From: Micavibrio sp.
GTDB taxonomy: Bacteria > Pseudomonadota > Alphaproteobacteria > Micavibrionales > Micavibrionaceae
Direction: 5' to 3'
DNA: 32,042 nucleotides
NCBI GenBank assembly: GCA_028290825.1
Contig: JAQGJB010000056.1
Coordinates: forward strand, 1 to 32,042
Within the stretch, counting starts at the first letter, position 1, and each line of letters starts with the position of its first letter. The notes below the pieces were generated by a model. That model saw nothing but the letters and a program-made list of their open reading frames with translations. It was not told the DNA's origin and did no database searches. The position numbers and the translations under genes were made by a program. Of the stretch, positions 1-10,736 are shown piece by piece.

Positions 1-2
1 TT

Positions 3-665
3 GGCGGTTTGTCCGGCGGTGGGGGGGACCCGCTTGCAGGACTTACAGATGCCCTCCATGGTTTGACAGACGGGCTGGGCGGCGGCGGAAATGAACCCGG
101 AACACCGGACACTGACCTTACAATTCATACCGGCATTGATCTTCTGGATAACACGCTTGGCCTCCCGGACATTGCGGCCACACTTGATCCTGTCGAAAAT
201 CTGGTCGGCGATATAGACCTCGGTATCAATCTTGATACAAATGCAGTCAATGAAATTTTATCCGGTGATGTACAGGGTACGATCGACTCACTGACCGGAA
301 CAGTCACAGGTCTTATCGACCTCAACCTCTTCTTGCTGAACCCCGAACCGGGCCAGACCGCACCGCTCAGTCTGGACATCGGTAACGCCGGCTCCAGCAT
401 CACGGACATTCTCTCTGGCCTGGCCTCTCCGCTGGGCGGATCGACAACGCCATCCTGGCCTGAGGCCACAGTTTCCGGGATAACCGATACCGTGTCGTCC
501 ACAATCGATCATACACTCGGCGCAACTCTGCCCGATCCTGTCGGAATTATTACCGAAGGACTTAGCCTTGTTACAGGCGCAGGGGGCGGTTCGGCCTCCG
601 GCGGCGGGTTGCTGGGTGGACTTCTGGGCGGCGGCGGTGGCGGCCATCACGGATTATTCGGGTGA
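3..665 (+). CDS. Glycine/aspartate-rich protein, C-terminal part (5'-truncated by window edge), probable type I secretion cargo
   Basis: The frame is open to the left edge, so this is the C-terminal end of a longer protein; the in-frame TTG at 9 need not be a start. About 220 residues are visible. They are rich in Gly, Leu, Thr and Asp, with about 20 Asp, 6 Glu, no Lys, no Arg and no Cys. Poly-Gly blocks frame the segment, and the protein ends in a GGLLGG-type glycine tail with two His. A short GLTD motif repeats near the left edge. I see no RTX nonapeptides. Extreme acidity and lack of basic residues are common in proteins exported by type I systems. The stop overlaps the next gene by four bases (GTGA) and the operon continues with ABC and HlyD subunits. 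Cargo identity is therefore an inference from composition and context; no family is recognised. Confidence 0.6.
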   Translation, partial: GGLSGGGGDPLAGLTDALHGLTDGLGGGGNEPGTPDTDLTIHTGIDLLDNTLGLPDIAATLDPVENLVGDIDLGINLDTNAVNEILSGDVQGTIDSLTGTVTGLIDLNLFLLNPEPGQTAPLSLDIGNAGSSITDILSGLASPLGGSTTPSWPEATVSGITDTVSSTIDHTLGATLPDPVGIITEGLSLVTGAGGGSASGGGLLGGLLGGGGGGHHGLFG

Positions 666-2341
666 GCAAGACAATGAAAAAAACACTCATACCCGAAGGC
701 TACGGTATCAACGCTGTTCAGTTGATCGTCCCGTCTGTATTTATCGCCGTTCTCTCGCTGACTTTGCCGGTCCTGACGTTACAGGTCTATGACCGCATTC
801 TTCCCAATCCGGATTCCGGCACTCTGCCGATCCTGGTTGCGGGGGTTTGTGTCGCCGTCCTGCTTGAGATGGCCCTGCGTCTCTGCCGCGCCTATACGCT
901 GGGGTGGAGCGGGGCGGCTTATGAACACCGTCTGTCCTGTGAAGCCGTCAATCATATCCTTCGCACCAATCTCTCCACCATCAACCGTGACGGGGCCGGT
1001 GAAAACCTGAACCGCATTGCGGCCATTTCCAAGCTGCGAGAATTTCATAATGGTTATGATCTTATCACTTACACGGAACTCGCTTTCATTGTGCCTTATC
1101 TTGTGCTGATCGCCTATATCGCCGGGCCGCTGGTTCTTGTGCCTGTGGTCATTCTTGCGCTTTTTGCCCTGGTTTCTGTTGTCATGGGGAAATGGCTTAA
1201 CCGGGCCCTTGCCGCCAGAGACCGCGCCGATGACACCCGTTATGATTTCCTGATTGATGGCCTACAGGGTGTTCACACCATCAAGGCCTTCAGCCTCGAG
1301 AAACCTTTCCTGCGCCGGTACGAACGTCTTCAATATAACGCCACCGTTGCCAACTACGAAGTGACCGAGGCAACATCCGGTGTCTTCAATGCCGCAGCAG
1401 TTTTCAGCCACCTCATGCTGGCCTCCGTCATCACCATCGGGGCTTGGCGCGTTCTGGATGGCGGGATGACCTCCGGTGCGTTGATTGCCACCATTTTCCT
1501 CTCTGGTCGCGTGATGCAGCCGGTTCAGCGCGCTTTGGCGCTCTGGACCCGTTACCAGGATTATCAGGTCGCCGCCGAAAAAGTACGCAAGATTTTTGCC
1601 ATGCCACTTGCTCCACAGGGGCAGAAAATTACCACGCCCGAACCGCAACGTGCGGGAACCCTGACGCTTCAGAACATTGCCTTCGGGGATATGTTCCAGA
1701 ATATAAACCTCTCTTTGATGGCAGGCGATTGCATCCAGATTTCCGGAGCCTATGGATCGGGTAAATCGACCTTGCTGAAAATCATGGCGGGTCTTTACAT
1801 CCCCGACCACGGCAGCGTCATGATTGACGGTCGCGAGCCGATGGATATCCCGCCCCAGGCCATGATGAACCATGTCGGCCTCATATCGACCGAGGGCGCA
1901 ATCTTCCGTGGCCGTATTCGCGATAACCTGACCCGCTTCGGCAGTATCCCCGAAGATGCGGTGCGCCCCATCAGCGCCATGCTCGGGATCGAGCAGGATG
2001 TTTCGGTCCTGCCCCGCGGCTTCGACACCTGGATGGAAGGGGTGGAGCAGGATACCGTCCCCCCCGGCCTGCGCCAGCGTATCGCCATGGCCCGAATCCT
2101 TGCCACCCATCCGAAAATAATCCTGTTCGACAACGCCGAGCGCAATCTTGACCGCGAAGGCTACCGCCAGATCCACACGCTACTCGGCAGGCTGAGGTCA
2201 AAGGTCGCGCTAGTTCTCGTTGCCGAAGATAACAATATCGCAAGCCTTGCCAGCCGACATTTCCGCCTGACCCGGCGGGGACTGATCGAGCAGCCGATCC
2301 TTAACGATACGATCCTCTCATTCAGGGAAACCCGCACATGA
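662..2341 (+). CDS. Type I secretion-like ABC transporter subunit (TMD-NBD) with degenerate ATPase motifs
   Basis: This is an inner-membrane half-transporter of the type I secretion ABC family (PrtD/LapB-like). Membrane segments occupy about residues 20-280 and the nucleotide-binding domain about 330-540. Walker A is intact (GAYGSGKS, 362-369). Other motifs are altered: the Q-loop position reads T410, the signature LSGGQ reads VPPGL (466-470), the Walker B aspartate D490 is followed by N491 instead of the catalytic Glu, and the switch His is replaced by about E522. It has no N-terminal C39-like domain. The domain probably binds ATP but may not hydrolyse it. The GTG start overlaps the previous stop by four bases. 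An ATG at 674, seven bases after GGTGAG, is an equally plausible start. The stop overlaps the next ATG by four bases (ATGA). It likely forms a heterodimer with the downstream ABC subunit. Confidence 0.85.
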   Translation: MSKTMKKTLIPEGYGINAVQLIVPSVFIAVLSLTLPVLTLQVYDRILPNPDSGTLPILVAGVCVAVLLEMALRLCRAYTLGWSGAAYEHRLSCEAVNHILRTNLSTINRDGAGENLNRIAAISKLREFHNGYDLITYTELAFIVPYLVLIAYIAGPLVLVPVVILALFALVSVVMGKWLNRALAARDRADDTRYDFLIDGLQGVHTIKAFSLEKPFLRRYERLQYNATVANYEVTEATSGVFNAAAVFSHLMLASVITIGAWRVLDGGMTSGALIATIFLSGRVMQPVQRALALWTRYQDYQVAAEKVRKIFAMPLAPQGQKITTPEPQRAGTLTLQNIAFGDMFQNINLSLMAGDCIQISGAYGSGKSTLLKIMAGLYIPDHGSVMIDGREPMDIPPQAMMNHVGLISTEGAIFRGRIRDNLTRFGSIPEDAVRPISAMLGIEQDVSVLPRGFDTWMEGVEQDTVPPGLRQRIAMARILATHPKIILFDNAERNLDREGYRQIHTLLGRLRSKVALVLVAEDNNIASLASRHFRLTRRGLIEQPILNDTILSFRETRT

Positions 2342-4566
2342 CCAGCAGCTTTAAGATTACAAAAAACGAAAAAGTGCCCGCGAATGAATCCCAGCTTGAA
2401 AAGGCGCAGGCCGACCCTGTCGAGGGTTTGCTGAATGTCTTGGGCGATACCATCTGGTCTGCCCAGCGCCACCGCGAACACAATGCATGGGAAGCCTGCC
2501 TGTGCAGCCTGATCCTGGGCCTTGACCCCACCATCCGCACGGTTCAGGTCTGCGAAGCTGTGCCGTATGGATCGGAATCCCTTGACCGCGTCGGTTTTGC
2601 AAACACAATGGCCAATCTTGGCTATACATGCAAAACCATCTATACCTCGCTAAAAGATGTCGATAAGCGGATCATGCCCTGCATGTTCATTCCGCTTGAT
2701 CATCCTGAATCCCCGGCCATTCTTTTTGCCGACGGCTCCGTTTATCAGGGGAGGCAACGCAAGAACAGATCCCTGAATAACAAACAGGACCTGAAAGGAA
2801 AGGTTGTCATCTTTCGGCGCACCGATTCCCTGGACGACCAGACCTCCCGCATTTCGCGTTCAGCAACACAGTTCAGCTGGTTTCGCGCCCTTGTCGAACG
2901 TTTTCACAGTACCTCACTGAACATCCTCATCACCGGGCTGGTCCTGAATCTCATTGGCTTGACCACGCCTTTATTTATCATGCTCGTCTATGACCGTGTC
3001 ATTTCCTCGCATGCCCTGAATGTTCTACCCTGGCTGGCTGCCGGTGTCGGTATTGCCCTGATCGCTGAATGGGCGCTCCGTGCGATACGGTCTAAATCGC
3101 TGTCCTGGCTCGGCGGGCGTGTTGATAATATTGTCAGTAACATGATCTTCGATCATCTTCTCCATCTTGCGCCGTCCTATATCGAACGTGCTTCTATTCC
3201 GTCTCAGATCGCACGGATCAAGACCTTCGAATCCATCCGCGATTTCTTCAGCGGTGCAATGTTTCTGTCGGTCATGGAGCTGCCGTTCATGATTATCGCC
3301 CTGGCAGCGATTGGTTTGATTGCCGGTCCTCTGGTTATCGTCCCTATCGGCATGTCTCTGGTTTACCTCACACTGTTCTACTTTATCTGGCGCAAGGTAC
3401 GCGTCGCCATCCGCACAGCCGCGAAGGCCAGCTCCGCCCGCCAGCAATTTTCCCTTGAAACCATCGAAAAGGTCGAGGCCATACGCGGCAATGCGCTCAC
3501 CGAAATCTGGGGTGAAAAGTTCCGCGAACTTTCAGGCCGGGAAGCATTGGCGCAGTTCCAGCTCGGCTGGTACGGCATGATCGGTGAAACCTTCGCCAAT
3601 GCCCTCACCGTGATGTCCGCCGTTGCGGTAGTAACCTTCGGGGTCAGCTTTATCTGGAATGGTGAAATGACCACCGGCGGGCTTGTCGCGACGATGATCC
3701 TGGTCTGGCGTGTGCTCGGCCCGTTCTATAGCCTTTGCACCATGGTGCCGCGTCTTGAGCAGTTACGTAATTCCATCCGCCAGGTGAATGGCCTGATGGA
3801 TGTGGACACGGAGGAAATGTCCGCAGAAGGTCTGGCCCGTCCCGGCCGCCTGAAAGGCCGCGTCACCTTTTCTGCCGCGACCCTTAAATACAATACGTCT
3901 GCCGACCCGGTGATCGCCGGCCTGACACTGGACGCGGCGCCCGGCGAAATCATCGCTATAACGGGTGAAAATGGTTCCGGGAAAACTTCATTGCTGAAAA
4001 TGATCAAGGGCCTGTATCTGCCCCAGCATGGCAGCCTCCGTCTTGACGGTTACGACATGCGCCAGCTTAATCCGCACGACGTTCGCCGCAATATCGCTTA
4101 TATCCCGCAGACGCCGGATTTCTTCCCCGGCACAATCGCCGAAAACCTGCGTTTCGGGAATCCCCTGGCGACTGAAGGAGAGATCAGGCAGGCATTAGGG
4201 CAGGCCCGCGTCCTCGACGAAATCAACGCAATGCCGGACGGCCTTCAGACGATCATCGGCGGTAGCGAGGGCATTCGCCTGAACTCCACCCTTGCCGCAC
4301 GCCTGAGCATGGTCCGCGCCTATCTGCAGGACGCACCGATCATGCTGATCGATGAATTGCCCAACACCCTGTTGACCGACGAATCCGGACGGTTCCTGCA
4401 CGACACTATCATGCGGCACAAGGGAACCCAGACCGTCTTTATCGTCAGCTACCGCGAAGACTTCCTCAACATGGCCGATAAAATCGTCTTCCTGCGCCGT
4501 GGCTATGCCCCGCAATGCGACACGGGAAAAACGATGACCGAACGCCTGAAAAAATCACTCTGGTAA
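2338..4566 (+). CDS. Type I secretion-like ABC transporter subunit with N-terminal C39-like domain
   Basis: This 742-residue protein has the layout of RTX/LapB-type secretion ATPases. Residues about 30-165 resemble a C39 peptidase-like domain. The membrane domain spans about 190-470 and the nucleotide-binding domain about 505-725. The peptidase-like part lacks the usual DCG cysteine motif; the corresponding stretch is WEACLC at 51-56, so it is probably a non-cleaving substrate-docking domain. Walker A (GENGSGKT, 543-550), the Q-loop Gln (Q591) and Walker B with catalytic Glu (IMLIDE, 668-673) are present. The signature is LNSTL instead of LSGGQ (648-652), and the switch His is Y705. These losses differ from those of the preceding ABC subunit. 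The four-base ATGA overlap with that gene suggests coupled translation and pairing. Confidence 0.88.
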   Translation: MTSSFKITKNEKVPANESQLEKAQADPVEGLLNVLGDTIWSAQRHREHNAWEACLCSLILGLDPTIRTVQVCEAVPYGSESLDRVGFANTMANLGYTCKTIYTSLKDVDKRIMPCMFIPLDHPESPAILFADGSVYQGRQRKNRSLNNKQDLKGKVVIFRRTDSLDDQTSRISRSATQFSWFRALVERFHSTSLNILITGLVLNLIGLTTPLFIMLVYDRVISSHALNVLPWLAAGVGIALIAEWALRAIRSKSLSWLGGRVDNIVSNMIFDHLLHLAPSYIERASIPSQIARIKTFESIRDFFSGAMFLSVMELPFMIIALAAIGLIAGPLVIVPIGMSLVYLTLFYFIWRKVRVAIRTAAKASSARQQFSLETIEKVEAIRGNALTEIWGEKFRELSGREALAQFQLGWYGMIGETFANALTVMSAVAVVTFGVSFIWNGEMTTGGLVATMILVWRVLGPFYSLCTMVPRLEQLRNSIRQVNGLMDVDTEEMSAEGLARPGRLKGRVTFSAATLKYNTSADPVIAGLTLDAAPGEIIAITGENGSGKTSLLKMIKGLYLPQHGSLRLDGYDMRQLNPHDVRRNIAYIPQTPDFFPGTIAENLRFGNPLATEGEIRQALGQARVLDEINAMPDGLQTIIGGSEGIRLNSTLAARLSMVRAYLQDAPIMLIDELPNTLLTDESGRFLHDTIMRHKGTQTVFIVSYREDFLNMADKIVFLRRGYAPQCDTGKTMTERLKKSLW

Positions 4567-4577
4567 AGGAAAAGATC

Positions 4578-5918
4578 ATGACTTCTATAGCGATGAAACA
4601 TTCGTCCTCAAAAGCCAGGCAGCTGCGTTTCCTGTCGCAATCCGCCCGGCTGGAGGAAGCCGTGAATCCGCGTATTGTTACCATGACCTCCTGGGCCGTT
4701 TCGCTGACTGTCGTCGCCTTTCTGGGCTGGGCCAGCGTCACCAGCATCAATGAAATTACGCGCGGTCCCGGCGAAGTCATCCCGCAGGGCTTCCAGCAGA
4801 TCGTCCAGCATCTGGAAGGCGGTCTGGTCCGTGAAATCCGTGTGACCGAAGGCGATGTGGTTGATAAAGGACAGGTTCTCATGGTTCTCGACGGGGCAGG
4901 GACCCAGGAAGATCTTGGCCGTTCCCTCTCAGAAAAAGTTTTCCTCGAGCTGCAGCGTGAACGTCTGAAAGCCTACCTGGAAAACCGAAAACCCGATTTC
5001 ACCCCGTGGCAGTCCGCGAACACGGCCCTTGTCGCCGAACAGAAAAAAATCTTCGACACCATGCTGGATTCCAATGCCAAGGAACGGAACATCATCATGG
5101 ATCAGATCGCCCAGAAAAAACAAAGCATCTCCACCCTCGCCGTCAGGTCGGATTCAACACGTAAAAACCTGGCCCTGACCGAAGACATGTACAGCCGCCG
5201 GAAAGGTCTGCATGACCAGGGTTACATCTCCGACATGAAGCTTTTGGAAAGTGAACAGGAACTGAATTCTCTGCGCGGTGATACAGCCTCGGTAAACAGC
5301 CAGATAGGTCAGGCACGCCAGGAAATTCAGGAATACCAGTCCCGCCTGAAATCCCTCGACGCCAAAAACCGTGAACAGGCCTACCAGCAACTGAACGCCA
5401 TCGAAGGCCAGCTGGCCCAGAACAGCGAAACGGTCCAGAAACTGAACAAACGTTCAGGTCGCCTGGCCATCACTTCACCGGTTCATGGTCTGGTTAAGGG
5501 CCTGACGGTTAATACCATCGGCGGCGTGATTCAGCCAGGGCAGCAATTGATGGAAATCGTTCCGCTTGACCGCAAACTGGAAGTCGAAGCCCGTATCCCG
5601 CCGCAACAGATCGGCCATATCAAGGTGGATATGCCGGTTCAGGTGAAGGTCAGCACCTATGACTTCGCGCGTTACGGCTCCATCACAGGTCATGTGGAAA
5701 CCATATCCCCGACCACCTTCGAGGGGGAACGGGGCGAGCGTTTCTACCGCGTACGGATCGGTCTTGACCGCAACTATGTCGGTCCGGACCAGAAAAGAAA
5801 CATTATCGTGCCCGGCATGACTGTGATGGCCGATATCGTCACCGGCGACAAGACGATCCTGTCCTACCTCTTGAAACCGATCCACAGATCCCTGCAAACA
5901 TCCTTTACGGAGAGATAA
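4578..5918 (+). CDS. HlyD-family periplasmic adaptor of a type I secretion system
   Basis: This is a membrane-fusion protein that links the inner-membrane ABC pair to an outer-membrane TolC-like channel. I chose the ATG at 4578 (446 residues) because AAGGA at 4566-4570 lies seven bases before it. The longer open frame upstream would run back into the ABC gene. One membrane segment lies at about residues 33-55, followed by a biotinyl/lipoyl-like part with the typical EGGLVREI and EGDVV motifs. A long Gln/Glu/Lys-rich coiled coil spans about 110-300, and a beta-barrel region with the ITSPVHGLVKGL motif follows. Length and order match HlyD/LapC/PrtE proteins. The gene follows the ABC gene by 11 bases. 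No TolC homologue is visible in the window. Confidence 0.92.
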   Translation: MTSIAMKHSSSKARQLRFLSQSARLEEAVNPRIVTMTSWAVSLTVVAFLGWASVTSINEITRGPGEVIPQGFQQIVQHLEGGLVREIRVTEGDVVDKGQVLMVLDGAGTQEDLGRSLSEKVFLELQRERLKAYLENRKPDFTPWQSANTALVAEQKKIFDTMLDSNAKERNIIMDQIAQKKQSISTLAVRSDSTRKNLALTEDMYSRRKGLHDQGYISDMKLLESEQELNSLRGDTASVNSQIGQARQEIQEYQSRLKSLDAKNREQAYQQLNAIEGQLAQNSETVQKLNKRSGRLAITSPVHGLVKGLTVNTIGGVIQPGQQLMEIVPLDRKLEVEARIPPQQIGHIKVDMPVQVKVSTYDFARYGSITGHVETISPTTFEGERGERFYRVRIGLDRNYVGPDQKRNIIVPGMTVMADIVTGDKTILSYLLKPIHRSLQTSFTER

Positions 5919-5920
5919 AT

Positions 5921-6430
5921 ATGCTCATGCAAAACCGTGGCCGCGAACTCGATTTCATGGTGTCCGCGACCTTCCAGTTCAGAACGATGGAGGAGGCGCA
6001 TACCCTCTCTCTTTATCTCGCCAATTGTTTCCCGGAACCTGAGCGCGTGGTGAACGGGTTGACCGAACTGATGTTCAACGCCATTGAACACGGCAATCTC
6101 GGCATCGGCTACCAGATGAAAGCCGAACTCAGCCAGCAGAACCTGCTGGCAACCGAAGTGGCGCAGCGTCTGCAAAGCCCGGTTCTGGGCGAACGTGTGG
6201 CCGAGGTCACCATGGCCCGTAAGGACGGCGGCATCTATATTGTCATCACTGACCAGGGCGAGGGCTTCGACTGGAAAGATCACATCAAAATCAATCCGTC
6301 GCGGGCCGGAAAAACCTCGGGCAGGGGGATCGCCATGGCGAATTCCATAAGCTTTGATAAGCTGACCTACAATGAAAAGGGTAATACCGCAGTGGCCTTT
6401 GTTGCCGAAAGTTCAGATTTCAGCTGGTGA
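5921..6430 (+). CDS. RsbW-like HATPase_c ATP-binding protein (anti-sigma/serine kinase type)
   Basis: This 169-residue soluble protein consists essentially of one GHKL ATPase domain. The N-box is E49-L-M-F-N53-A-I-E-H-G-N. The G1 box is DQGEG at 111-115, and the G2-like loop is SGRGIAMA at 133-140. It has no dimerisation-histidine domain, no membrane segment and no receiver domain, which fits anti-sigma-factor kinases of the RsbW/SpoIIAB type or other standalone regulatory ATPases. An insert at about residues 66-95 separates the N-box from the next strand. The ATG is two bases after the hlyD-like stop, and the purine-rich GGAGAGA overlapping that stop is the likely ribosome site. It is therefore co-expressed with the secretion system and may regulate it. 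No anti-anti-sigma partner or sigma factor is visible nearby. The domain call is firm; the biological role is inferred. Confidence 0.8.
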   Translation: MLMQNRGRELDFMVSATFQFRTMEEAHTLSLYLANCFPEPERVVNGLTELMFNAIEHGNLGIGYQMKAELSQQNLLATEVAQRLQSPVLGERVAEVTMARKDGGIYIVITDQGEGFDWKDHIKINPSRAGKTSGRGIAMANSISFDKLTYNEKGNTAVAFVAESSDFSW

Positions 6431-6540: not shown

Positions 6541-7662
6541 ATGAGTTCCCGGCCGCAAATGACCCGAAAAATCCTGCCCTTCATTGTATTGACCTTAATC
6601 CTCGTCTCCGGGGTCTGGCTTGCCACCACGGCGTCGGCAAAGGATGAGCCAGCGCCGAAAGCCCCGGCTGCGGTGCCTGTAAAAATCGTCCCTGTCGCCC
6701 GCCGCGATATGCCCGTGACGATCAGGGCTGTCGGTACGGTCACCCCGTTTCAGACCGTCGCCATCAAATCCCGCCTCGACTCCCAGATCATGCAAGTTAA
6801 ATTTCAGGATGGTGACGCCGTAAAAAAAGGCGATACGCTCTTTGTCCTCGATGACCGCGTGCTGAAATCCCAACTCACCCAGGCCCAGGCCAACCTGCAA
6901 CGTGACAAAGCCCAGCTTCAGAACGCGAAACAGCAAAACGAACGCACCCAGAAACTGGCCCAGCAGGGTTACGCCACCGGCACAACCAGCGACGAAACCA
7001 AAGCCGCCGTTGAATCAGGCATTGCCACAGTTGCGGCAGATCAGGCCGCTATTGATAACATTCGCGTTCAGCTCGGCTACACCAACATCACCGCACCGAT
7101 TGACGGACGTACCGGAACCATCAACGTCACCGTCGGTAACAACGTTAAGGCAAACGACACCACCGCCCTCGTCACCATCAACCAGATCAAGCCGATCCTG
7201 GTTCAGGTCGCCTTGCCCCAGAGTAATTTTGATGCCGTGCGCCTGGCGATGGCGCAGGGTGATGTGCCGGCCTCCGCCAAACGCGACGGCAGTGACGCCA
7301 TCAGCGCAGGAAAACTTCAATATCTTGATAATGCCATCGACCAGGGAACTGGCACTTTTGTAACCCGCGCCGCTTTCCCAAATGTTGATGAAAGCCTGTG
7401 GCCGGGAATGCTGGTAAACCTTTCCATCACGCTGAAGGAAGACAAGGGCGTTCAGGTCGTTCCCGATGTCGCCATTCAACACTCCCCGACCGGCGATTTC
7501 GTCTTTGCGATTATCGGCGGAAAATCTGTGAAAAAACCTGTCGCCGTCGCCCGGATGCAGGACGGCTTCGCCGTCATCGCCAAGGGTCTGGAAGATACGG
7601 ATCAGGTCGTCACCGACGGCCAGATGTCTCTCAAGGACGGCAGCGTGGTCAGTACGCAATAA
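6541..7662 (+). CDS. RND efflux periplasmic adaptor (MdtA-like)
   Basis: This membrane-fusion protein of a resistance-nodulation-division pump has 373 residues. An N-terminal hydrophobic segment at about 11-33 acts as signal or anchor. The lipoyl half-motif (VKFQDGDAVKKGDTLFVLDD) is followed by an alpha-hairpin with Gln/Lys heptads, then the lipoyl return motif with TAPIDGRTG, which is characteristic of MdtA/AcrA-type adaptors, and a C-terminal membrane-proximal domain. The ATG at 6541 has no convincing Shine-Dalgarno. An internal ATG at residue 7 is possible, also without one. The permease gene follows after 17 bases, so the two form an operon. The inverted repeat directly upstream may control it. 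The substrate cannot be read from the sequence. Confidence 0.92.
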   Translation: MSSRPQMTRKILPFIVLTLILVSGVWLATTASAKDEPAPKAPAAVPVKIVPVARRDMPVTIRAVGTVTPFQTVAIKSRLDSQIMQVKFQDGDAVKKGDTLFVLDDRVLKSQLTQAQANLQRDKAQLQNAKQQNERTQKLAQQGYATGTTSDETKAAVESGIATVAADQAAIDNIRVQLGYTNITAPIDGRTGTINVTVGNNVKANDTTALVTINQIKPILVQVALPQSNFDAVRLAMAQGDVPASAKRDGSDAISAGKLQYLDNAIDQGTGTFVTRAAFPNVDESLWPGMLVNLSITLKEDKGVQVVPDVAIQHSPTGDFVFAIIGGKSVKKPVAVARMQDGFAVIAKGLEDTDQVVTDGQMSLKDGSVVSTQ

Positions 7663-7679
7663 CCCAAGAGTAGTTTTTA

Positions 7680-10600
7680 ATGGTCCTCTCCGATTTCTGC
7701 ATCCGCCGTCCGGTCTTTACGATTCTTCTCATGGCGGCGCTTCTCGTTGCCGGTGTTGCCGGATATCAGACCCTTGCGGTCAGTGCGCTGCCCCGCGTCG
7801 ATTTTCCAACCATTCAGGTTTCCGCCAGCCTTCCGGGGGCCAGCCCGGAAACCATGGCGTCCTCCGTCGCGACGCCTCTGGAACGGCAATTCTCGACCAT
7901 CTCCGGCATTTCCTCGATGAATTCATCCAGCTACCTGGGTAATACGTCCATCACCCTGCAATTCGATCTGAACCGCAGCATCGACGGGGCTGCGCTTGAT
8001 GTGCAGACCGCAATTTCAACCACACTCCGTAAACTGCCGAAGGAAATGACCACGCCGCCGTCCTTCCGCAAGGTCAACCCCGCCGATGCACCCGTTTTGT
8101 TTATCGGTGTATCCTCCGACACCATGCCGTTGTCCGAGGTCAATGAATACGCCGACACCATGATGGCCCAGCGTATCTCCATGGTTCCCGGTGTCGCTCA
8201 GGCCATTATTTACGGGGAACGTAAATATGCCGTCCGCATCCAGGTCGACCCTAACAAACTCGCCGCACAGGGTCTGGGCTTCAACCAGGTGCAGCAAGCC
8301 GTCGCCGCCGCCGCCTCGAACGCCCCGTTGGGCAGTATCTACGGCCCCAAACAGCTTTTTAACATCAGCATGGAAGGCCAGCCCAAAGACGCCGCCGGTT
8401 TCCGCGACCTTATCGCCGTCTGGAAAAACGGCGCACCGATCCGGCTTGGCGATCTCGGCACCGTTGTCGATGATGTGCAGGATACTCACCAGGCCGGTTT
8501 CCTGAACGACAAACCTTCCATCGTAATCGCGATCCAGCGTCAGCCAGACGCCAACACTATCGAAGTCGTAAAACAGATCCGCGAGCTTCTGCCCAAATTC
8601 AAGGACCAGCTTCCAGCCTCGATCCAGATCACGCCTATGTTCGACCGTTCGGTCGCCATCCAGAACTCCGTCCATGATGTGCAGTTCACACTTTTCATCA
8701 CCTTCGCCCTCGTCGTTCTGGTGATCTATTTATTCCTGGGTAATGTCCGCGCCACACTGATCCCCGCGCTCGCTGTGCCGCTTTCTATTGTCGCCACCTA
8801 TGCGGGTATGGCAGCGCTCGGTTTCTCCATAAACAACGTATCCTTGCTGGCGCTCACGCTTTGCGTTGGCTTCGTCGTCGATGACGCCATTGTGATGCTC
8901 GAAAACATCGTCCGCCATATAGAGGAGGGAATGAAACCCCTCGACGCCGCCTTCAAAGGCTCGAAGGAAATTGGCTTCACGATTATTTCCATGACCGTGT
9001 CGCTGATCGCCGTGTTCATTCCGGTCCTGTTCATGGGCGGCATCGTTGGCCGCCTGTTCCGCGAATTCGCCGTCACCATATCCATCGCCATCATGTTCTC
9101 CGGTCTCATTTCCCTGACGCTTACGCCGATGCTGTGCGGGCGCTTCCTGAAGGGCGAGGCAGGTCACAGCGGACGTATTTTTAACTGGGTCCAGGACCTC
9201 TATGTCTCCAGCCTCGCGGTTGTTCTGCGCTTCCGTCTGGTCACGCTGATCGCAACATTTGTCGTTCTCGGCGTTTCCGTCTGGCTGTTCGTCATTTCCC
9301 CGAAAGGTTTCTTCCCGCAGGAAGACACCGGCTTCATCCAGATCAGCACCGAAGCCGCCCAGGATATTTCCTACGATGCCATGCTGATCAAACAAAAGGC
9401 GGCCGCGGATATAATCAAGGCCGATCCGGCCATCTTTAATGTTTTCTCCGCGCTCGGCGGCGGGCGCGGCACTTTGAACTCCGGCCGCATGTTTGTCGGT
9501 CTGAAACCCAAGAACGAACGTGCGCCCATGTCAGACGTCGTGCAGGGCTTGCGCAAGAAACTTGCAAAAATCGAAGGCATGAAAGTCTATATGCAGCCGG
9601 TTCAGAATATCCAGATCGGTGGCCAGCAGGCAAAAAGCCAGTACATCTATTCAATGCAGGCGGGCGACCTTGACCAGCTCTACGGCTGGTCTGAAAAACT
9701 GAAGGATGCCCTCGGTAGCGAATCGGGTTTCCAGGACGTCAACTCCGACCTGCAGTTAAAAAGCCTCCAGGCCATCGTCACCGTGGACCAGCAAAAAGCC
9801 GCCAGTGTCGGTATAACCTATGATGACGTTCGTCAGGCCCTCTACGGCGCTTACGGTACAGGCCAGGTCGCAAGCCTCTACACCGACGCCAACGATTACG
9901 AAGTCATCTTCGAGGTCGCCCCGCAATACCAGAAAACCATTGATGACATTGGCCAGATTTATATTTCGGGCAGCGCCGCCGGGGGCCGTGTTGTCGCCAT
10001 GAACTCGATCGCCACAATAACGCGGGGTGAAGCTTCTCTCTCTGTCAACCACCAGGGACAGCTCCCGTCGGTCAGCCTCTCTTTCAACCTTTCCCCCGGC
10101 GTTTCCTTGAGCGACGCAGTCCAGCGTATCTCCTCGATCCGCCAGAAACTCCAGGTGCCCGATTCAATCACCGGCAGTTTCCAGGGTACCGCCCAGGCAT
10201 TCCAGGCCTCCGCGCAGGGGCAGGGCTTACTCCTCCTGCTTACGATCGTTGTGATCTACATTATCCTCGGCATGTTGTATGAAAGCTTTATCCACCCGAT
10301 CACCATCCTTTCCGGCCTGCCTTCCGCCGGGCTGGGGGCGATCCTCACACTGATGCTGTTCAAAATGGATGTCAGTGTAATCTCGATCATCGGTATCGTT
10401 CTGCTGATCGGCATTGTGAAGAAGAACGCCATAATGATGATTGACTTCGCCATTGGCGCGCGGGCTGAGGGGAAAACCGCTGTAGAAGCCATTTCCGAGG
10501 CCTGCCGCCTGCGCTTCCGCCCCATCATGATGACCACAATGGCCGCGATTTTCGGCACATTGCCGATCGCAATGGGTATTGGTGACGGTGCCGAACTACG

Positions 10601-10736
10601 TCAGCCTCTTGGTGTGGCCGTTGTTGGTGGCTTGCTGACGTCACAATTGTTGACGTTGTTCATCACGCCTGTCGTCTACGTCTACCTTGAAAATCTGAGC
10701 ACACGGTTTAAACGGAAACCTGCTCAGGCCGAATAA
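7680..10736 (+). CDS. RND multidrug efflux permease (MdtB/MdtC-like)
   Basis: This 1018-residue inner-membrane proton/drug antiporter has full family length. The N-terminus is typical (SDFCIRRPVFTILLMAALL, first membrane helix), followed by the VSALPRVDFPTIQVS strand, PLERQF, and the repeated porter domains. The fourth membrane helix carries the proton-relay acidic pair in GFVVDDAIVMLENI. The second half repeats the fold and ends with the MMTTMAAIFGTLPIA loop and last helices. It most resembles MdtB/MdtC rather than AcrB. A single permease accompanies the adaptor, so it probably works as a homotrimer with an unlinked TolC-like channel. Its stop lies 15 bases from the stop of the convergent oxidoreductase gene. 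Confidence 0.94.
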   Translation: MVLSDFCIRRPVFTILLMAALLVAGVAGYQTLAVSALPRVDFPTIQVSASLPGASPETMASSVATPLERQFSTISGISSMNSSSYLGNTSITLQFDLNRSIDGAALDVQTAISTTLRKLPKEMTTPPSFRKVNPADAPVLFIGVSSDTMPLSEVNEYADTMMAQRISMVPGVAQAIIYGERKYAVRIQVDPNKLAAQGLGFNQVQQAVAAAASNAPLGSIYGPKQLFNISMEGQPKDAAGFRDLIAVWKNGAPIRLGDLGTVVDDVQDTHQAGFLNDKPSIVIAIQRQPDANTIEVVKQIRELLPKFKDQLPASIQITPMFDRSVAIQNSVHDVQFTLFITFALVVLVIYLFLGNVRATLIPALAVPLSIVATYAGMAALGFSINNVSLLALTLCVGFVVDDAIVMLENIVRHIEEGMKPLDAAFKGSKEIGFTIISMTVSLIAVFIPVLFMGGIVGRLFREFAVTISIAIMFSGLISLTLTPMLCGRFLKGEAGHSGRIFNWVQDLYVSSLAVVLRFRLVTLIATFVVLGVSVWLFVISPKGFFPQEDTGFIQISTEAAQDISYDAMLIKQKAAADIIKADPAIFNVFSALGGGRGTLNSGRMFVGLKPKNERAPMSDVVQGLRKKLAKIEGMKVYMQPVQNIQIGGQQAKSQYIYSMQAGDLDQLYGWSEKLKDALGSESGFQDVNSDLQLKSLQAIVTVDQQKAASVGITYDDVRQALYGAYGTGQVASLYTDANDYEVIFEVAPQYQKTIDDIGQIYISGSAAGGRVVAMNSIATITRGEASLSVNHQGQLPSVSLSFNLSPGVSLSDAVQRISSIRQKLQVPDSITGSFQGTAQAFQASAQGQGLLLLLTIVVIYIILGMLYESFIHPITILSGLPSAGLGAILTLMLFKMDVSVISIIGIVLLIGIVKKNAIMMIDFAIGARAEGKTAVEAISEACRLRFRPIMMTTMAAIFGTLPIAMGIGDGAELRQPLGVAVVGGLLTSQLLTLFITPVVYVYLENLSTRFKRKPAQAE

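Follow-up and report, generated by a model that had tools for sequence, protein, structure and literature searches.

The window, i.e., the whole stretch of 32,042 nucleotides analysed here, is contig 6 of a 2.46-Mb metagenome-assembled genome (MAG) of Micavibrio sp. that is 86% complete, and partner genes could be absent from the assembly. It begins with a type I secretion operon containing two ABC half-transporter genes and an HlyD-type adaptor gene, directly followed by a gene for a stand-alone GHKL ATPase (Table 1).

Table 1. Genes and sequence elements at the beginning of the window
Feature	Position	Strand	Remarks
Presumed secreted protein, C-terminal part	1..665	+	Cut by contig start; Gly/Leu/Asp-rich, LFG end
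ABC1 half-transporter	662..2341	+	Lacks Walker B Glu and H-loop His; signature reads PPGLRQR
ABC2 half-transporter	2338..4566	+	Retains Walker A and Walker B Glu; lacks signature and H-loop His
HlyD-type periplasmic adaptor	4515..5918	+	TIGR01843, 390.8 bits (cut-off 208.65); start near 4578 also possible, with the ABC2 gene ending at 4566
GGAGAG, ribosome-binding-like site for the ATPase gene	5910..5915	+	Inside the hlyD end; read directly, role presumed
Stand-alone GHKL/HATPase_c_2 protein, 169 aa	5921..6430	+	ATG start; apparently descended from a REC-Bergerat response regulator, with REC lost
N-box region (...VVNGLTELMFNAIEHGN...)	6044..6076 (approximate)	+	Presumed catalytic Glu 4 residues before the invariant Asn

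The 169-aa protein matches Pfam PF13581 HATPase_c_2 with 37.4 bits (cut-off 27.4, E-value 2.9e-9), and the NCBIfam models searched with it gave no match. Its N (ELMFNAIEHGN), G1 (DQGEGF), and G2 (SGRGIAMA) boxes are all intact, and the N-box Asn, the G1 Asp and Gly, and GRGI are invariant in an alignment of 20 homologues. According to Foldseek, the closest structures to the predicted model (mean pLDDT 86) are LvrC (9QIH, E-value 1.1e-9) and then SpoIIAB (4.4e-5). The window protein thus combines the three boxes with what is predicted to be a GHKL fold of the RsbW/SpoIIAB type, and corresponds to the C-terminal GHKL domain of the TciR/LvrC subfamily. The original prediction of an RsbW-like GHKL ATPase with intact boxes, located 2 nt behind the adaptor, is therefore borne out by the open reading frame, Pfam, and the alignment. 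The hlyD stop codon TAA occupies positions 5916–5918, and the GGAGAG within the end of hlyD suggests that translation of the two genes may be coupled.

As for the upstream genes, both ABC halves are closest to the LssB model (TIGR03375), each below its cut-off. The product of positions 1–665 has 45% identity to the protein encoded 5' of ABC1 in G002 and G003, which are complete genomes of the same genus. No Pfam match was obtained for the presumed secreted proteins of the window and of two other loci (L030 4249–6972 and L036 2293–4191), whose N-terminal motif around DADQYSAEDLDGVTESLFGSGNLNY is conserved and which contain repeats similar to LDPVENIVGDIDID and end in LFG. Divergent OmpR-type response regulator genes lie 5' of the substrate gene in L033, L037, and L043, with a TolC-like gene beyond them in L033 and L043; the window contig begins too late to show this flank.

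The ATPase gene had also been described as the last gene of the operon. While its linkage to the operon holds, the terminal position is probable rather than certain: an RND adaptor gene starts at 6541 on the same strand, 110 nt 3' of the ATPase gene, and no convincing terminator or promoter was found between them. Positions 6541–10736 encode an RND efflux adaptor and pump, and an RND pair occupies the same place in G002 and G003 with merely 26–34% identity to the window pair.

In most relatives the homologous frame is ∼310–340 aa long and starts with a receiver domain (REC + GHKL), a point that the original prediction missed: the ATPase itself is real, but its usual form is a response regulator of ∼320 aa, the receiver of which has apparently been lost here. 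REC is present in G002, G003, and most other relatives, and its conserved Asp, Thr/Ser, and Lys positions are kept; in the G002 protein Pfam Response_reg is found, and HATPase_c_2 remains below cut-off. An N-terminal REC was sought and is absent from the window protein, from that of the Micavibrio sp. congener UBA6139, and from G024 and G038. Since these REC-less members sit inside REC-bearing groups, loss of REC appears to be the direction of change rather than late gain, and on the transporter tree REC is missing in three separate lineages. UBA6139 has a stretch like the last receiver helix (DPQLLKSVLESL versus NEDVLRSVLLAA), which is suggestive of a REC relic.

Two recently described proteins share this architecture. 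TciR of Vogesella indigofera has a REC and an RsbW-like domain, acts downstream of a sensor kinase, and controls pigment in a genome without an RsbV homologue, with homologues reported from beta-, gamma-, and alphaproteobacteria, Nitrospira, and Leptospira (J Bacteriol 2025, PMC12826045). LvrC of Leptospira combines REC with a Bergerat domain and is phosphorylated by the histidine kinase LvrB, and a sigma target has been proposed for it (Nat Commun 2026, PMC13269768, PDB 9QIH). Judging by sequence, the window gene is a REC-less descendant of this REC-Bergerat kind and not a full member of it. At several loci a hybrid kinase gene (HisKA, HATPase_c, REC, Hpt) lies directly 3' of the regulator gene and would be the natural phosphodonor for REC in those relatives; no such gene adjoins the ATPase gene of the window.

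Comparison of the window with UBA6139 gives dN of 0.257 and dS of 1.67 for the ATPase (dN/dS ∼0.15, with dS near saturation), and dN of 0.208 and dS of 2.0 for the HlyD part (dN/dS ∼0.10). With dS near saturation in mind, these values indicate that the REC-less domain is kept under purifying selection, and they rule out a pseudogene.

The linkage to the secretion operon is well conserved. Of 20 genomes with a homologue (window included), 19 have the ATPase gene 1–32 nt behind an orthologous HlyD gene. The exception is G039, in which the homologue lies in another context with no transporter beside it, and a search for HlyD in this 62% complete genome gave no match. Of 58 genomes, 19 have both the HlyD orthologue and the ATPase, 37 have neither, and 2 are discordant, kinship among the genomes being ignored in these counts. 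The order ABC1-ABC2-HlyD-ATPase is found in Desulfobulbus, Desulfogranum, and Desulfocapsa (Desulfobulbales), a gammaproteobacterial MAG, and Marinicaulis as well, so that checking the gene neighbourhood, as had been proposed, reveals an old link.

In a phylogenetic tree built from 114 domains, the secretion-linked members, 34 in number, form a group of 38 with four others, and the number of changes between secretion-linked and other labels is 5 versus 29 in shuffles, with none of 500 shuffles as low. The AU test (p 0.13) is compatible with a single clade of secretion-linked members but is no proof of one. In the tree of ABC1, ABC2, and HlyD, all regulator-bearing operons fall into one clade with SH-aLRT 97. 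Nested inside it, however, is a clade of three loci (L181–L183) where a hybrid kinase gene directly follows HlyD in the otherwise same operon and no REC-GHKL gene is present. The regulator gene is also absent from the more distant double-ABC operons, as far as their HlyD end was read. An obligate component of type I secretion would be expected in all homologous operons, which this gene is not, and because these operons do without it, the regulator appears to be an old but dispensable part that is not needed for secretion. From sequence comparison, it is a real, old, and selected add-on to the type I secretion operon. The original prediction had named operons lacking the ATPase as a sign of chance adjacency; such operons do exist, but the conclusion is not upheld, with chance adjacency being ruled out by the conserved spacing and the co-occurrence of HlyD and ATPase.

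In Desulfobulbales (L074 10660–12513, L076 8274–12698) a large cadherin/Big-repeat adhesin gene lies 3' of the REC-GHKL gene and probably encodes a cargo of the secretion system. The REC-GHKL gene of Desulfogranum marinum (L081 4091–6020) adjoins the same zinc-ribbon gene as in D. mediterraneum (L076 600–8274); unlike the latter, however, the D. marinum locus has no transporter or adhesin genes, which were either lost or never inserted.

As for the activity of the domain, Glu45 of RsbT is a potential catalytic base (PMC9237128), and the Glu at −4 from the N-box Asn is its likely counterpart here. This Glu is kept in 25 of 34 secretion-linked members versus 77 of 78 others; the rows behind the 9 and 1 losses, respectively, are related, yet the losses fall in several lineages. 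The G1 and G2 boxes, in contrast, are kept in all 34 secretion-linked members. Because Glu is repeatedly lost and the nucleotide boxes are kept, the function these members share is likelier to be nucleotide-dependent binding than kinase activity. In the window protein the presumed catalytic Glu is retained, and kinase activity may be possible in this species.

The reading favoured here, which seems reasonably probable, is that the gene encodes a REC-Bergerat output domain that forms an old part of one double-ABC type I subfamily and acts by nucleotide-dependent binding of a partner. Its assignment to nucleotide-dependent regulatory binding proteins as a functional class is moderately supported. 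In the ancestral form, a neighbouring hybrid histidine kinase/HPt would phosphorylate REC, and phosphorylated REC would expose or rearrange the GHKL domain, which would then bind a partner protein depending on ATP/ADP and adjust export or a surface-protein programme; kinase activity towards the partner is probably dispensable. With REC gone and no adjacent kinase in the window lineage, the remaining domain could serve as a constitutive nucleotide-gated binding protein, and its amount would track expression of the secretion operon via translational coupling. The partner could be a sigma factor, in line with the proposal for LvrC; since the sigma repertoire of the complete relatives is sparse, another cytoplasmic protein is at least as likely.

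An anti-sigma factor working without partner switching is possible, though distinctly less probable: the GHKL domain would bind a sigma factor directly, under the control of REC phosphorylation in relatives and of nucleotide state or dose in the window species. The similarity to LvrC together with the proposal of its authors (PMC13269768) and the eight Sigma70_r2 matches in the window genome agree with this. However, only two Sigma70_r2 proteins are found in G002 and three in G003, and G002 keeps the regulator although its two matches are RpoD- and RpoH-like by frame size. Moreover, for LvrC and TciR a sigma target is a proposal at most.

A classical anti-sigma kinase of the RsbW type, part of a partner-switching circuit that also comprises a PP2C phosphatase and a STAS antagonist encoded elsewhere, is unlikely. 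The fold and boxes do match those of SpoIIAB/RsbW, and related REC-GHKL proteins elsewhere (L111 and others) adjoin PP2C and STAS genes. In G021, moreover, a stand-alone STAS gene (L056 9478–9786) occupies the ATPase slot 21 nt behind HlyD, and a GHKL and REC-PP2C gene pair is located elsewhere in the genome (L057 2279–3815). Nevertheless, no SpoIIE (PP2C) phosphatase was found in G000–G004, and searches of G002 and G003, which carry the REC-fused form, with PF01740 and PF13466 gave no stand-alone STAS and no STAS_2, STAS being restricted to one frame of ∼580 aa in each. The same two models found no STAS in G000, a MAG that is 86% complete. The unlinked STAS partner that the original prediction suggested looking for was hence not found in any of the three genomes outside that one large frame, and its idea of coupling secretion to a partner-switching circuit finds no support in the complete congeners. 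The small number of Sigma70_r2 proteins in G002 and G003 and the repeated loss of Glu in the secretion-linked branch also make canonical partner switching unlikely here.

Direct post-translational control of the transporter is improbable as well. The GHKL domain would in that case bind HlyD, the substrate, or the asymmetric ABC pair and act as a gate that depends on nucleotide but not on kinase activity, and a phosphorelay, or the ATP/ADP state of the cell where REC is lost, would control type I export. Besides the gene's strict linkage to hlyD (19 of 20 genomes), this reading draws on conserved motif losses in the same transporters (window 662–4566; L029–L046, L056, L064–L080, L178–L184): ABC1 has lost Walker B Glu and H-loop His throughout, whereas in ABC2 Walker A and Walker B Glu are still present, the signature is gone, and so, in most cases, is the H-loop His. 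In the more distant regulator-less double-ABC operons, His, Glu, and other motifs are largely kept. The ABC2 site of the window is, however, near-complete, with the Q-loop also retained and the signature and H-loop His lost, and to describe the pair as ATPase-deficient is an overstatement. Furthermore, L181–L183 show the same motif losses without the gene, which weakens the idea of GHKL as a substitute ATPase for the pair, and D. marinum and G039 have the gene with no transporter beside it. Direct action on the ABC pair, the other role originally suggested, is accordingly doubtful.

Finally, chance adjacency or a decaying response-regulator remnant is very improbable, as the missing REC and neighbouring kinase gene in the window lineage are outweighed by dN/dS of ∼0.15 versus UBA6139 after the REC-less state had arisen, intact boxes, and linkage across phyla.

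The characterisation of REC-Bergerat regulators dates only from 2025–2026 (TciR and LvrC), and a target is shown in none of the papers found. A search of the open-access literature found no link between such a regulator and a type I secretion operon; the branch described here connects the family with a specific machine and its probable cargo. Hardly any alternative sigma factors and no STAS/PP2C partners occur in its genomes, which leaves fewer candidates for the bound partner and makes the question testable. Members in which REC or the presumed catalytic Glu has repeatedly been lost are natural variants that allow receiver input, kinase chemistry, and nucleotide binding to be told apart. Since Micavibrio lives as an obligate epibiotic predator, regulated secretion in its relatives may bear on prey attachment.

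In comparison with known systems, TciR has the same REC + GHKL architecture as the relatives of the window protein; the accessible parts of its description, however, report pigment control and no secretion operon, and the window protein has no REC. LvrC is the closest solved structure to the predicted models and also shares the architecture common to the relatives, with only ∼20–24% identity in structural alignments and, again, a REC that the window protein lacks. SpoIIAB/RsbW of Bacillus (PDB 1TIL, 1L0O, 6M36) resemble it in GHKL fold, N, G1, and G2 boxes, and stand-alone domain, but identity is 9–16%, the complete relatives lack a STAS/PP2C partner, and Glu is lost in part of the branch. SypE-SypA of Vibrio fischeri and HsbR-HsbA of Pseudomonas likewise tie RsbW-like domains to REC and biofilm behaviour and are cited as precedents (PMC12826045; PMC6482189); those systems, in contrast, use STAS partners and carry PP2C domains. 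The known type I system of strain ARL-13 (GMV0107–GMV0111; PMC3189940) appears to be different from this operon, since its gene numbers and position correspond to the HlyD match near 111 kb of G002, whereas the operon lies near 1.20 Mb. As for the LssB/HlyB-HlyD type I systems (TIGR03375, TIGR01843), HlyD scores above the curated cut-off and the ABC halves are nearest to the LssB model; here, however, there are two unlike ABC halves below the LssB cut-off, conserved motif losses, and a regulator gene in the operon.
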